DNA of 64,000 bases from Centipeda felix (GTDB taxonomy: Bacteria > Bacillota > Negativicutes > Selenomonadales > Selenomonadaceae), in contig NZ_LT891959.1 of the NCBI RefSeq assembly GCF_900186465.1, positions 642,921 to 706,920 on the forward strand. Reading direction: 5' to 3'. The notes below the pieces were generated by a model. It was given only the letters and a program-made list of their open reading frames with translations, did no database searches and was not told where the DNA came from. The position numbers were made by a program, and so were the translations under genes. Position 1 is the stretch's first letter. The number at the start of each line of letters is the position of its first letter. Shown piece by piece: positions 6,153 to 62,489 of the stretch.

Positions 6153-7070
6153 TCAAATTCCCGTAATCATCGACACGAACGGTATCGTCGCCACGGAGAT
6201 GACCGTCGAGAGCGCGATGATCTCCGTCATAAGCGGATAGGCGACCTTGTTGTAGAGCAGGGCGACCATCGCCACCATACCGCCCGTCGGCGCGGCGACG
6301 ATGACGAGGCTACAGCCGAGGATGTAGGGATTCGTGACGAAGAACTTCATCGCAAAGAGAATGGGGATGGGCAGCACCACAGCCTTGAGAAAGGTGTAGA
6401 CGAGCAGCTTGTGGTCGGTCAGCATGTGGCGCATGTGGATATCCTTCAGCGATGCGCCGATCATCATCATCGCGAGCGGCGCCGTCATCGCACCGATCAT
6501 CGTAAACGCCTGCAGGAGGAGCGGATTTGTCGGAATCTCACCGAAGTAGATCACGCAGGCGATCAGCGAGGCGATGATGCCGGGATTCAGCAGCATGCGC
6601 ACCATCTCAAGACCGCGCTGTTTATGAATGCTGATGGAGGAAACGCCGTAGATGAAAAAGAGCAGATTGACGGGAATGAAGAACAGCGTCATATAGACGA
6701 CCGCCTGATCGCCGTACACCCCCTGCACAAGCGGCAGCCCCATGAAGAGTGAGTTGTTGAACCAAAACGAGAGGTTCACCGCACCGCGCAAACGTCCGCG
6801 ATAGCGCAGGAGAATCGGCAGCAGGAAACCGACGGCGCACATCATCACGAGGAGAATGGCGTAGTCGAGATAGGTGTCAATAACCTGCGCCAGATCCATG
6901 TGCTCCTGTGCGTGCATCGCTGAGGAGATGATGAGGCAGGGGCACGCGATATTGACAATCAGGGAGGAAAACTGCTCCTGATTGTTCGGAATGATGATCT
7001 TGTATCGGCGGGCAAGCGCCCCTGCAAAAATCATCAGAAAGAATACGATCATCTGCCCTAAAATCAGCAT
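6153..7070 (-). CDS. AEC family transporter (auxin efflux carrier type)
   Basis: The 305-residue, ten-helix-type membrane protein begins MLILGQMIVFFLMIFAGALARR and has the typical features NNSLFMGLPL after about residue 110 and AAPTGGMVAMVALLYN near the C terminus. Members export or import small organic acids such as malate and malonate; the substrate is not predictable. It heads a tight cluster with the metallophosphoesterase and the GT41 protein. An AAGG site lies 9-13 bases before the start. The 220-base gap upstream holds a structured repeat. Confidence 0.85.
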   Translation of the reverse strand: MLILGQMIVFFLMIFAGALARRYKIIIPNNQEQFSSLIVNIACPCLIISSAMHAQEHMDLAQVIDTYLDYAILLVMMCAVGFLLPILLRYRGRLRGAVNLSFWFNNSLFMGLPLVQGVYGDQAVVYMTLFFIPVNLLFFIYGVSSISIHKQRGLEMVRMLLNPGIIASLIACVIYFGEIPTNPLLLQAFTMIGAMTAPLAMMMIGASLKDIHMRHMLTDHKLLVYTFLKAVVLPIPILFAMKFFVTNPYILGCSLVIVAAPTGGMVAMVALLYNKVAYPLMTEIIALSTVISVATIPFVSMITGI

Positions 7071-7116
7071 TTCTACATTACCTTCTTTATTTCAGTTATT
7101 TCTCTTTCATGCAAGC

Positions 7117-7264
7117 GCCTCGCGAACACTTAGTTACGCAAGTGATCGCGTGCTCATTCGCCTAAATACCGGCGCACTTCTTAAACGCGCTTCGCTTGAA
7201 CGAAAGAAGTACGCCGGGGGCGAGTCGCATGCTTTCCTCACTTGCTCCACTAGGGTTCGCTTTG
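7117..7264 (+). repeat. Structured dispersed repeat, copy A (covarying stems)
   Basis: About 140 bases related to 62305-62441 in inverted orientation. It can fold into one long interrupted hairpin: an outer stem GCAAGTGA (7138-7145) with TCACTTGC (7238-7245), a middle stem GCGTGC with GCATGC, then TCGCC with GGCGA, and an apical stem CCGGCGCACTTCTT (7169-7182) with AAGAAGTACGCCGG (7204-7217, one mismatch). The loop parts CCTAAATA and the ~21-base apical loop are conserved between copies, while the stems change in a compensated way. The transcript of the neighbouring minus-strand genes would carry the complement. A short plus-strand reading frame crosses it but is shared only because the repeat is. 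Confidence 0.85.
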
Positions 7265-7292
7265 GGGCTTTGCATCACATTCATTCGAGACA

Positions 7293-10121
7293 TCAATGTT
7301 TCTCTTCCAGCAGGGGCTTCAGGAAGCGCCCCGTATAGGATGCCTTCACCTGCACGATCTCCTCGGGCGTTCCCTGGGCGACAATCGTGCCGCCGCCCGT
7401 GCCGCCCTCGGGACCGAGGTCGATGATGTGATCCGCCGTCTTGATGACGTCGAGATTGTGCTCGATGACGACCACCGTATCGCCGCCGTCTACGAGCCGC
7501 TGCAGGATGAGGAGCAGCTTGTGGATGTCCGCCGCATGCAGCCCCGTCGTCGGCTCATCGAGGATATAGAGCGTCTTTCCCGTGCTGCGCCGCGCCAGCT
7601 CCGTCGCAAGCTTGACGCGCTGCGCCTCACCGCCCGAGAGCGTCGTCGCAGGCTGTCCGAGGCGGATGTAGCCGAGCCCCACGTCGCGGATGATCTCGAG
7701 CTTGCGCGCGATGCGCGGCACATTTGCAAAGAACTCCACCGCCTCGTCAATCGTCATGTCGAGCACCTCGGCGATGGTCTTGCCCTTGTAGTGCACCTCG
7801 AGCGTCTCGCGGTTGTAGCGCGCCCCCTTGCAGACCTCACAGGGAACGTAGACATCGGGAAGAAACTGCATCTCGATCTTCAGGATGCCGTCGCCCCGGC
7901 ACGCCTCACAGCGTCCGCCCTTCACGTTAAAGCTGAACCGCCCCGCCTTATAGCCGCGCATACGCGACTCGCTCACCTGACTGAACAGCTCGCGGATCGC
8001 ATCGAACACCCCCGTGTAGGTCGCGGGATTCGAGCGCGGCGTGCGTCCGATCGGCTGCTGATCGATGTTGATGACCTTGTCGATATGCTCAAGCCCCTTG
8101 ATCTTCTTGTGCTTGCCGGGCTTTCCCTTCGCGCGGTAGAGCCGCGAGGCGACACCGCGATAGAGGATCTCGTTGACGAGCGTCGACTTGCCCGAGCCGG
8201 ACACGCCCGTCACAAGCGTTAGCGTGCCAAGCGGAAATTTCACATTGACATTCTTCAGATTGTTCTCCGCCGCACCCACGATCTCCAGAAAATAGCCGTT
8301 TCCCCTGCGCCGCTCTGCGGGCACGGGGATGAACTTTTTGCGTGAGAGATACTGCCCCGTGATGGATGCAGGATTCTTCATGATCTCTGCCGCCGTTCCC
8401 TCTGCAACCACCTCGCCGCCATGCTCTCCTGCGCCGGGGCCAATATCGATGATATGATCGGCGGCGTACATCGTATCCTCGTCATGCTCCACAACAATGA
8501 GCGTATTGCCGAGGTCACGCAGATGCCGAAGGGTCGCGAGCAAGCGGTTGTTGTCACGCTGATGCAGCCCGATGCTCGGCTCATCAAGGATGTAGAGCAC
8601 CCCCATCAGCCCCGAGCCGATCTGCGTCGCGAGGCGGATGCGCTGTGCCTCTCCGCCCGACAGCGTCGATGCCGCACGCGAGAGCGTCAGATAGTCGAGT
8701 CCCACATCGAGGAGAAAATGGAGGCGTGCATGAATTTCCTTCAAAATCTCTCCGGCTATTTTTGCCTCACGCGGCGTAAAATCCTGCTCTGCCTCCGTTA
8801 GAAACGCATCTGCCTCACGAATCGTAAGGGCCGTGAGTGCGGCGATATTCTTCCCGCCGACCGTCACGGCGAGCGCCTCGGGCTTCAATCGCGCCCCGTG
8901 GCACGCCGAGCACGGCGTATCAGTCATATAGTCCTCGTAGCTCTCGCGCATCTCCTCCGAGTCCGTCTCGCGATAGCGGCGCGTGAGTGCGGGCAAAACA
9001 CCCTCGTACGGGACATGGTATTCCTTCTCCTCGCCGAACATATTCGTGTACTGGAAGGAAACATACTCATCCGACCCATAGAGCAGCATCTTCTGCGTCT
9101 TCTTGTCCATGCGGTTCCACTGCGTATGCGCATCGTAGTCATGCGCCGCCAGGAGTGCTGTGATCGCCCGCATCCCATAGGAATTCGGATTTTTCGAGAG
9201 CGGTGCAAAGACACCGTCTGCCACGCTGAGCGTCGGGTCGGGAACGACGAGCGCAGGGTCAAACTCCTTGTGACTGCCGAGCCCCGTACAGACGGGGCAC
9301 GCGCCGAATGGGCTGTTAAATGAAAACATGCGTGGTGCGATCTCGGGCAGTGAGATGCCGCAGTCCACACAGGCGAAGTTCTCACTGAACATGAGGAGAT
9401 CGCCGTCCACCACCTGTACGTAGACCACGCCCTCACCTGCGTGGAGCGCCGTCTCCAGGGAGTCTGCCAGACGGCTCTCCATGCCCTCGCGCACGACGAG
9501 GCGATCTACGACGATCTCAATCGTGTGCTTCTTCTGCTTTTCGAGCGCGATCTCCTCGCTGAGATCATGCAGCTCTCCGTCGATGCGCACGCGCACATAG
9601 CCCTCGCGGCGAATCTGTTCGAGCACCTTCTTGTGCTCGCCCTTCTTGCCGCGCACGAGCTGCGCCATGATGAGGAGCTTTGCTCCTGAGGGCAGCTGCA
9701 TGATCCGATCCACCATCTGATCGACGCTCTGCTGCGTGATCGGCTTGCCGCAGTTCGGGCAGTGCGGGCGTCCCGCGCGCGCATAGAGCAGGCGCAGATA
9801 GTCGTAGATCTCCGTCACCGTCCCGACCGTCGAGCGCGGATTGTGGCTCGTCGTCTTCTGGTCAATCGAGATGGCAGGCGACAGCCCCTCGATGTTGTCC
9901 ACATCGGGCTTGTCCATCTGCCCAAGGAACTGCCGTGCGTAGGCAGACAGCGACTCCACATAGCGGCGCTGCCCCTCGGCATAGATCGTATCAAATGCGA
10001 GCGAGGACTTCCCCGAGCCGGAGAGCCCCGTCACCACAACTAATTTATCGCGCGGTATCTGCACTGTAATATTTTTCAAATTGTGGGCGCGTGCCCCCTC
10101 GATCTTGATGTATTCATTCAT
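7293..10121 (-). CDS. uvrA: Excinuclease ABC subunit A
   Basis: The 942-residue protein is a full-length UvrA, the DNA-damage sensor ATPase of nucleotide excision repair. It has two ABC ATPase halves: Walker [10 protein letters not shown] near residue 31-40 and GVSGSGKST near 640; signatures [12 protein letters not shown] and [12 protein letters not shown]; and zinc-finger cysteines CPNCGK, CVDC..., CPVC and CEACRGDG...CEVC. It ends [12 protein letters not shown]. It follows uvrB by 13 bases on the same strand, so uvrB-uvrA form an operon. No LexA box was identified. Confidence 0.98.
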
Positions 10122-61291: not shown

Positions 61292-62242
61292 ATGCACGCA
61301 AAAAAATTATTCCCACGATTCCTGCTCACCCTCGCACTCGCCATGATGGCACTGGTCGCCGTCGGCTGCGGCGGAGGAGGCACAGGCGGCGACAAGGCAG
61401 CCGACACGAAGAAAACCGTGACGGTCACAACCTCATTTTTACAGGATATGACAAAGCAGCTCGCGGGCGACTATGTGAACATCGAGCTGATTATCCCCGC
61501 AGGTGAGGATCCGCACCTCTACGTCGCGCAGCCCGCCGACCTTGAGAAGATCAAGAAGGCGGATCTCCTCCTCTACCACGGCCTGCACTTCGAGGGCAAG
61601 ATGGCAGAGGTGCTTGAGAAGAAAGGCGTCGCGGTCACGAAGAACTTTGCGGACGCGAACATCAACTACATGGAGGAGGACGGCAAGAAGATCGTCGATC
61701 CGCATTTCTGGTTTGATGTCGCGCTCTACAAGCAGGCGACGGAGGAGGCGGCAGCGCAGCTCATCAACCTGCTCCCCACGCATGAAAAGGAGATTCAGGA
61801 GAATCTGAAGAAGTATCTTGCAGACCTCGACGCGCTTGATGCCGAGATCACACAGAAGATCGCACAGATTCCCGAGGGGCAGCGCAATCTCGTCACGCCG
61901 CACGATGCGTTCAACTACTTCTCCCACCGCTACCACGTGAATGTCATCGCGCCGCAGGGGGTCAGCACGGACTCCGAGGTTGCGAATGCCGACATCGAGA
62001 AGACGGCAAATTACATTGTCGAGCACAAGGTCAAGGCGGTATTCGCCGAGAGTACGACGAACCCCGAGCGCATGAAGAAGCTGCAGGAGGTCTGCAGGAC
62101 GAAGGGCTTCGACGTGGAGATCGTTGGCGGTGAGGGCAATGAGCTCTTCTCGGATTCTCTTGCACCCGAGGGCCAGAAGGGCGATACCTATATCACGATG
62201 TACCGCAGCAACATCGATCTGATTGTTTCACATTTGAAGTAG
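61292..62242 (+). CDS. Zinc/manganese ABC transporter substrate-binding lipoprotein
   Basis: The 316-residue protein has a lipoprotein signal (LFPRFLLTLALAMMALVAVGC, Cys at about 28) and a cluster A-I (TroA/ZnuA) fold. Ligand candidates are His in EDPHLY, His in VDPHFWFD, His in VTPHDAFNYF and Asp in ELFSDSL. No His-rich loop is present, which is more like manganese/iron-type proteins than ZnuA, but the metal is uncertain. It is the first gene of a three-gene operon; 247 bases with a structured repeat separate it from the ATPase gene. Confidence 0.92.
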   Translation: MHAKKLFPRFLLTLALAMMALVAVGCGGGGTGGDKAADTKKTVTVTTSFLQDMTKQLAGDYVNIELIIPAGEDPHLYVAQPADLEKIKKADLLLYHGLHFEGKMAEVLEKKGVAVTKNFADANINYMEEDGKKIVDPHFWFDVALYKQATEEAAAQLINLLPTHEKEIQENLKKYLADLDALDAEITQKIAQIPEGQRNLVTPHDAFNYFSHRYHVNVIAPQGVSTDSEVANADIEKTANYIVEHKVKAVFAESTTNPERMKKLQEVCRTKGFDVEIVGGEGNELFSDSLAPEGQKGDTYITMYRSNIDLIVSHLK

Positions 62243-62304
62243 CAGAAAAATGTTCGCTGTCAGATGTTATGAACAAACGGAAACGTAACCATACGACACT
62301 CCTA

Positions 62305-62441
62305 AGCAAACCCTAGTGGAGCAAGCGGAAGCGAGTGTGCGACCCGCCCCCTGCGGATTTCTTTCGTTCAAGCGCAGCGCGTTTAAGAAGTCCGCAGGTA
62401 TTTAGGCGGACGAGCACACGACCGCTTGCGTAACGAGGCGT
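62305..62441 (-). repeat. Structured dispersed repeat, copy B
   Basis: Related to 7117-7264 in inverted orientation. The outer stem GCAAGCGG (62321-62328) pairs perfectly with CCGCTTGC (62422-62429), GTGTGC with GCACAC, and the apical stem CTGCGGATTTCTT (62351-62363) pairs with AAGAAGTCCGCAG (62385-62397, one G-U). It lies inside the metal transporter operon between the binding-protein and ATPase genes, so the operon mRNA would carry it, in the same sense as copy A relative to its neighbours. Confidence 0.85.
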
Positions 62442-62489
62442 TTGCGTGGAGTTCGTACGGATAAAGAAACCATACAGAAGAGGCGCAGA

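Follow-up and report, generated by a model that had tools for sequence, protein, structure and literature searches.

The window, a stretch of 64,000 nucleotides from the Centipeda felix genome, contains two copies of one intergenic hairpin, each preceded by the stop codon of a gene. For copy A this gene is uvrA (named as in the first-pass annotation), and the spacer holding the copy separates uvrA from an AEC gene. Copy B follows a gene whose product we take to be a probable metal-binding ABC transporter solute protein. The features are listed below, with the type of evidence in parentheses.

7109..7119 (+), 5' outer arm P1 of copy A, which differs in sequence between copies and pairs with 7264-7275 (fold; cis/trans pairing)
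7120..7264 (+), conserved core of copy A, comprising P1b to P5, the internal loops and the apical loop (covariance model; filled and empty sites)
7122..7127 (+), 5' strand of P1b, GCGAAC, pairing with 7255-7260 (sequence; structure alignment)
7138..7145 (+), 5' strand of P2, GCAAGTGA, the outer stem of the first-pass annotation, pairing with 7238-7245
7148..7153 (+), 5' strand of P3, GCGTGC, its middle stem, pairing with 7227-7232
7157..7162 (+), 5' strand of P4, TTCGCC, pairing with 7219-7224
7169..7182 (+), 5' strand of P5, the apical stem, pairing with 7204-7217
7183..7203 (+), apical loop, AAACGCGCTTCGCTTGAACGA, nearly invariant, other genera included
7264..7275 (+), 3' outer arm P1' of copy A (fold; cis/trans pairing)
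7293..10121 (-), uvrA, its stop codon just upstream of copy A in the sense of transcription (reading frame)
61292..62242 (+), gene before copy B, its stop codon preceding the copy (reading frame)
62292..62302 (-), low-coordinate outer arm of copy B, pairing with 62446-62457 (fold)
62302..62447 (-), conserved core of copy B (covariance model)
62446..62457 (-), high-coordinate outer arm of copy B (fold)

The stems quoted in the first-pass annotation are present as written in both copies. They belong to a single long hairpin whose architecture is that of a whole family: variable outer arms (P1), a P1b helix of GCGAAC paired with GTTCGC, an internal loop, the helices P2, P3, P4 and P5, an unpaired CTAAATA opposite G-rich DNA between P4 and P5, and a nearly fixed apical loop of 21 nt. 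With its outer arms, the full paired hairpin extends over about 7109-7275 in copy A and about 62292-62457 in copy B (166-167 nt), which is longer than first proposed. Folding of 171 nt around each copy yields -82 kcal/mol for A and -86.8 kcal/mol for B (z = -8.25 and -7.58), and none of 200 shuffles folded equally well.

A covariance model returned four matches in the window: the cores of copy A (plus strand, 173.3 bits, E = 3e-38) and copy B (minus strand, 168.2 bits, E = 5e-37), and both palindromes read on the opposite strand (24.8 and 22.8 bits). The model derives from a 31-sequence alignment of relatives with a structure written by hand from the family. The alignment includes the counterpart of copy A in genome G010, which is identical to copy A and its near flanks over 181 bp (blastn).

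The element reached no Rfam threshold, consistent with the initial impression that it belongs to no known Rfam family. At gathering thresholds, the sole Rfam 15 matches in the whole window are two adjacent tRNA genes (879-952 and 995-1067). Loci L001, L008, L080 and L012 gave no Rfam match at E <= 1, and six distant loci gave one tRNA and five sub-threshold matches. Two sub-threshold matches overlap copies in locus L255, at 27 bits of the 90 required and 24.3 of 86. The gltD motif of Selenomonadales and Veillonellales was rejected as a candidate because, as portrayed in the sections of PMC8632094 consulted, it always lies upstream of gltD. Among the titles and abstract openings listed for repeats and RNAs of Selenomonas or relatives and for ISL3 MITEs, mostly from the open literature, none dealt with the family, which may appear elsewhere under another name.

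Distribution and covariation of the hairpin family

The repeat is dispersed, as had been claimed, and far more numerous than the two copies first noticed. The C. felix genome has 19-20 copies by covariance model (19 at E <= 1e-6), and blastn with copy A gives 24 matches there at E <= 1 and 22 at E <= 1.1e-4. At E <= 1e-6 the model detects copies in 12 of the 14 genomes of the genus, with 8-60 per genome and 308 in all; the other genomes with copies contain 60, 9, 33, 39, 10, 28, 14, 8, 44, 18 and 26, and genomes G003 and G013 none. Among 41 genomes (C. felix and relatives) searched by blastn with copy A, 14 match at E <= 0.001, including 12 of the 14 in the genus, and none of 16 same-class genomes from other families does.

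Across a family-wide sample of 81 genomes, 20 have at least one model match at E <= 0.001, representing 9 of 30 genera with the genus of C. felix included; the E-values of the model are rough, and single weak matches (e.g., in G054 and G097) may be chance. The 20 include G087 with 32 matches and G069 and G050 with 13 each (E <= 0.001). Searching named genomes for exact matches to the apical loop recovered 46 loci, every one in a record titled Selenomonas or Centipeda periodontii. A plasmid or phage origin was rejected, with no match in plasmid and phage collections at E <= 0.001.

Distant copies retain a nearly unchanged apical loop, and most of their stem sequence is new. When 58 copies from other genera were anchored on this loop, 51 had a stem score of at least 10 in the arm zone (in one case an inner stem), as opposed to 3 of 200 controls in which each half came from a different copy. 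Stems of 15 or more perfect pairs occur in 19 of the 58, the longest having 23. The longest arms of different copies have a local similarity slightly above that of shuffled sequence (5.75 versus 5.24, 29 arms). Seven loci from other genera (L243, L247, L255, L274, L282, L286 and L291) contain two closely spaced copies that point toward each other, and one such pair is common to two species (L274 and L286).

Several measures bear out the claim of covarying stems around near-fixed loops. Within the 31-sequence alignment, standard pairs make up 95.7% of paired positions versus 86.0% in shuffles, two-sided changes affect 22 of 38 pairs versus 10.8 in shuffles, and sliding the structure by 1-3 columns lowers the paired fraction to 31-48%. 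A count of further pair types was weaker (41 versus 36.0, matched by 2 of 500 shuffles). From the genus, 129 distinct copies were extracted by requiring a nearly full match to copy A, a procedure that leaves out diverged and partial copies; 127 were aligned, two with runs of N being dropped. These copies include subfamilies with discrete stem variants.

A test against a phylogenetic null had been named as the check on the covariation, and it was run in our own R-scape-style version (not R-scape itself), which uses a G statistic with average-product correction. For the null, parsimony-inferred substitutions were redistributed on a FastTree tree in 50 sets to obtain empirical E-values, and 107 copies were analyzed after removal of 20 near-identical ones from the 127. 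Fifteen column pairs exceed this null at E < 0.05, of which 11 are Watson-Crick pairs of P1, P1b, P2, P3, P4 and P5, the strongest lying in P4, and 3 join non-pairing columns in the P4 region. Column pair 54-123, inside P4, is nested and mostly non-canonical (AA 46, GC 31, GT 25, AT 5; n = 107), and it may mark a structured internal loop. In all helices of the 127 copies, the Watson-Crick fraction is higher in cis than in trans: 0.67 versus 0.44 in P1a, 0.85 versus 0.60 in P1, 0.96 versus 0.87 in P1b, 0.85 versus 0.76 in P2, 0.93 versus 0.69 in P3, 0.98 versus 0.67 in P4, and 0.93 versus 0.85 in P5.

Insertion sites and mobility

Copies lie preferentially between genes that are read in the same direction. 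With neighbors called by our own hexamer gene caller rather than taken from annotation, 121 of 127 sites could be scored, six lacking two neighbors or having a frame across the element. These sites comprise 105 codirectional, 9 convergent and 7 divergent gene pairs, as opposed to 171, 32 and 27 among 230 background gaps of at least 15 nt. The codirectional excess is significant (P = 0.009), but divergent sites taken by themselves are not significantly depleted (P = 0.09). Copies at the 105 codirectional sites lie nearer the gene behind them, with medians of 34 nt from the preceding stop codon and 63 nt from the following start codon (P = 6e-4); these distances are measured from about P1b, and the outer arms start some 20 nt nearer. 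Copies A and B have the same orientation with respect to their neighboring genes, as had been noted, but across the family no significant bias is seen, codirectional sites having 61 copies in sense and 44 in antisense orientation (P = 0.12).

Comparison of orthologous spacers establishes that copy A is an insertion. The spacer between uvrA and the AEC gene contains the element in three of the 14 genus genomes (G000, G010 and G002) and no full copy in the other 11. Six of these have a short spacer (G003, G005, G008, G011, G012 and G013), four contain insertions of other sequence (G001, G004, G006 and G007), and G009 has a possible short remnant of the 5' end of the element (an 11-base exact match, E = 0.17). 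In another genus, the L246 site is filled in G042, filled by an element of opposite orientation and different arms in G069 (L242), and empty in G096 and G085. The idea that the outer arms are captured host terminators was rejected at both sites: the short spacers at empty site A show no such arms, and the terminator-like hairpin of G096, where the element is absent, is unlike the arms of the filled sites in sequence.

Other rearrangements and repeats occur in the same spacers and genomes. At the site shared by L113 (G002) and L054 (G008), G008 apparently has the same element inverted, with its core deleted and the outer arms left. G006 and G001 (L182 and L183) have a short, G+C-rich sequence resembling a hairpin, CCCCCG...CGGGGGAGGCT, between uvrA and the AEC gene, and it recurs in the flanks of L015, L018 and L020, in similar intergenic places. 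A second dispersed repeat of ~168 bp, TAAGGAATCGCTGATAAAATGAAG...GAATTTATCAGTGCTTCCTTA, itself an inverted-repeat hairpin, is present in the same genomes, for example at 2149-2343 and 2461-2628 of L006, with 41 matches in 30 of the extracted loci.

Terminal repeats resembling GGTTCTATGATAAATGTTACGGA / GGCTCTTTGTCATATGTTACGGA occur on some copies, mainly those of G006, and a pattern search located similar ends close to ISL3 transposase genes in G006, G011 and G002, a single end at each locus. In 7 of the 129 copies the pattern matched at both ends, and the 8-bp target duplication in these is exact (8/8) in four, 7/8 in one, and only 2/8 and 3/8 in two; duplications are also apparent by eye at L083 and L088. 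A minority of copies lies between ISL3-type ends, in some cases with 8-bp duplications, so that for this group at least the movement was that of DNA. Only 24 of 125 copies have an ISL3-like end scoring beyond the 99th background percentile, and the other 101 do not, so most extracted copies are not now recognizable as ISL3 MITEs. The annotation had allowed that the copies might be remnants of a known IS end: this describes a minority, and the core itself is not an IS end.

The distribution of Y1 transposases and reverse transcriptases does not follow that of the hairpin. ISL3 transposase domains were found in 6 of the 14 genus genomes, in one case as a fragment, and two element-bearing genomes of other genera, G016 and G022, have no ISL3 match. 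Y1_Tnp gave no match in 7 of the 12 repeat-bearing genomes and matched in both repeat-free ones, and RVT_1 matched in just 1 of 14. Ten reading frames lying between neighboring copies, candidates for an autonomous partner, include no transposase; six encode ordinary Pfam families (lipid A acyltransferase, topoisomerase, MFS, SLH/porin, AMP-binding and release factor), and four have none. Among ISL3, Y1_Tnp, RVT_1 and the frames between copies, no enzyme moving the bulk of the family was found.

Divergence at shared sites and wobble pairs

Within the genus, 26 pairs of copies have both flanks in common between species; the pairs overlap, since some sites are represented in three genomes. Their core mismatches are bimodal, with 0-4 in 14 pairs and 10-31 in 12. 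The 14 low-divergence pairs differ by 1.5% (29/1940) in the core, without gaps, versus 8.5% in genes and 8.2% plus gaps in other intergenic DNA, a core value biased downward because the group (8 mismatches or fewer) is defined by the core itself. The 12 high-divergence pairs differ by 15.3% in the core versus 14.8% in genes, and all 26 by 7.7% versus 11.3%. The low-divergence pairs contain 28 one-sided changes and 1 two-sided change, indicating that arm correction is not fast at that scale. The high-divergence pairs contain 72 one-sided and 98 two-sided changes, the latter being 98 of all 99, and in this group the core looks exchanged or independently inserted. One case, L104/L153, suggests that copies have exchanged cores, in that the spacers and arms are nearly identical (3/67 mismatches) and the cores different (22/138).

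Six pairs from another genus also share both flanks, with one-sided and two-sided changes of 6/10, 3/16, 9/10, 5/9, 8/7 and 15/3. The clearest is L257/L289, where 15 of the 16 two-sided changes are Watson-Crick. In this pair, P1 and P5 are rewritten on both arms, the apical loop is unchanged and the other loops are nearly so; one copy may also have been replaced by another there.

RNA helices tolerate G-U pairs, and tRNA acceptor stems from the same loci provide a calibration: 25 of 27 tRNAs (two dropped) contain 164 Watson-Crick, 10 G-T, 0 A-C and 1 other pair. The helices of the genus alignment contain 80 G-T and 226 A-C cells, 73 of the latter representing one near-fixed C-A mismatch in P5. 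When this mismatch and one unpaired column pair are excluded, 5409 Watson-Crick, 80 G-T, 153 A-C and 254 other cells remain. In 56 copies from other genera (2 of the 58 dropped), the outer arms contain 921 Watson-Crick, 14 A-C, 7 G-T and 2 other pairs; these arms were picked for matching, so that the high Watson-Crick fraction is partly built in and the G-T:A-C ratio is not. The ratio in the element differs from that in tRNAs in both sets (P = 3e-5 and 5e-4, with cells treated as independent, which they are not), and it does not differ significantly between sense and antisense copies (P = 0.16).

The hairpin therefore has no wobble preference in the modeled sense, G-T being no commoner than A-C. 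The original proposal of selection at the RNA or cruciform level is not supported in its RNA part. Covariation above a phylogenetic null, by which functional structured RNAs are recognized, is present here and is not specific to RNA. An A-C excess corresponds to wobbles on the opposite strand, so the pairing may yet be that of an RNA read from that strand.

Origin and maintenance of the arms

The reading that we favor, with a probability of roughly 0.5, is that copies A and B belong to a mobile-derived, multi-copy intergenic hairpin of Selenomonas and relatives, its arms complementary at the DNA level and its loops conserved. Consistent with this reading are the filled and empty sites, the target duplications, the copy numbers, covariation above the tree null and above the shuffled and slid controls, the excess of cis over trans pairing, the arm stems of other genera, the G-T:A-C contrast with tRNA acceptor stems, the two-sided changes of L257/L289 and the short distances to upstream stop codons. 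Against it stand the failure to find an enzyme for the bulk of the family, the one-sided changes of the 14 low-divergence pairs, and one of the six other-genus pairs that has changed mostly on one side (15 versus 3). The arms would probably be kept complementary by hairpin-templated copying, which is known for quasipalindromes during replication. When the palindrome folds in replication, a mutation in one arm could be copied into the other or reverted, and such template switching would produce strictly Watson-Crick arms with few wobbles. Template switching alone would erase asymmetric internal loops; therefore, selection must be added. Conservation of the loops would reflect a constraint on their sequence, in the simplest case recognition by a putative protein acting on the folded DNA or the hairpin RNA, or alternatively a function of the transcript. 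An inserted copy would probably be co-transcribed in a 3' or intercistronic region, and by analogy with YPAL and ERIC it may alter the stability of neighboring mRNAs.

A structured RNA selected at the RNA level would be transcribed behind the upstream gene, its hairpin protecting, processing or attenuating the mRNA and its compensatory changes keeping the fold. We regard this as improbable without being far-fetched: sites behind stop codons, the codirectional excess (105/121 versus 171/230), the near-fixed loops and the 1.5% core divergence of the 14 same-site pairs are all consistent with it, but the helices lack the wobble preference of tRNA acceptor stems, the orientation of copies is not significantly biased, nor does their G-T:A-C ratio depend significantly on it, and the 1.5% comes from pairs chosen by low core divergence. 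Sites behind stop codons and the strong folds of A and B also bring to mind an intrinsic transcription terminator, or terminators captured by insertions. This is very unlikely, as a run of at least five T residues within 25 nt follows only 4 of the 105 codirectional hairpins, compared with 6 of 105 on the other side, and a scan of 6900-7500 in the window, confined to loops of 3-8 nt, detected no terminator-like site.

The remaining alternatives concern how the family moves. It could be a purely selfish ISL3 MITE, with decay of the ends in the majority of copies and with covariation that reflects only old, well-paired source subfamilies, as the ISL3-type ends of 24 copies, the exact target duplications, the discrete stem variants and the transposase domains in six genomes would suggest; we consider this rather unlikely given the 101 copies without such an end, the carriers G016 and G022 without an ISL3 match, and the two-sided changes at same-site pairs in the other genus, which need change or replacement after insertion. 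Hairpin repeats between genes would also fit REP/BIME-type elements moved by RAYT (the Y1 transposase) or a retron-like RNA moved by a reverse transcriptase, but Y1_Tnp has no match in 7 of 12 repeat-bearing genus genomes and matches in both repeat-free ones, and RVT_1 matches in one of the 14 genus genomes, which leaves very little room for either, although a mobilizing enzyme of either type may have been lost.

Bacterial intergenic palindromic MITEs are recognized by a length of 100-200 bp, multiple copies, intergenic sites, a hairpin, and filled and empty orthologous sites, all of which the family has; ISL3-type terminal inverted repeats characterize only its subset of 24, and target duplications of 8 bp are seen in part of that subset. 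YPAL inserts close behind stop codons, where most copies of the present hairpin also lie. In its description in PMC2229807, YPAL (RU-2 of Yersinia, about 168 bp) is likewise an intergenic palindromic repeat of similar size with filled and empty sites, its targets span or adjoin dyad symmetry, and an effect on upstream transcripts is considered possible. Unlike the present family, compared here by description and not by sequence, YPAL has target duplications of 3 to 26 bp, and arms rewritten copy by copy do not figure in the portions of PMC2229807 that describe it. ERIC (RU-1, 127 bp) is a palindromic intergenic repeat as well, with a reported orientation-dependent effect on upstream mRNA stability, and differs, again by description and not by sequence, in termini that carry TA (PMC2229807, in the portions on ERIC). 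Correia/NEMIS and RUP are small MITE insertions with terminal inverted repeats (as outlined in PMC2229807), resembling the subset with ISL3-type ends, whereas 101 of the 125 present copies have no such end and the conserved part is an internal hairpin. Perfect stems and multi-base compensatory changes are shared with the template-switch-maintained hairpins of PMC8794818, where template switching is held to make and mend hairpins; the portions of that paper considered here propose it for RNA hairpins and describe it for RNA genes, as opposed to the dispersed bacterial repeat for which we propose it. The family is thus of the same kind as YPAL and ERIC and a member of neither, set apart by having fixed loops together with arms that are rewritten in each copy.

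Going further, the hairpin might represent a class of mobile elements recognized by structure, in which a dedicated protein, whether a host or a mobility factor, recognizes the fixed loops of the folded DNA hairpin, the outer arms contribute little if any sequence information, and one arm of each copy is rebuilt from its partner. This is a doubtful proposition at present; if true, copies would end up with arms of their own.

Covariation is standard evidence for functional RNA, and here it is strong and above the tree null without the wobble signature of RNA. The family can therefore help to separate selection at the RNA level from copying of arms at the DNA level. Annotation gains an unnamed repeat family present in 12 of the 14 genus genomes, and the several hundred natural copies (308 in 12 genomes) are available for study of how long palindromes persist in bacteria. 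With its fixed loops and jointly rewritten paired arms, the family offers a natural case in which to examine the spread of long hairpins and the persistence of their pairing.
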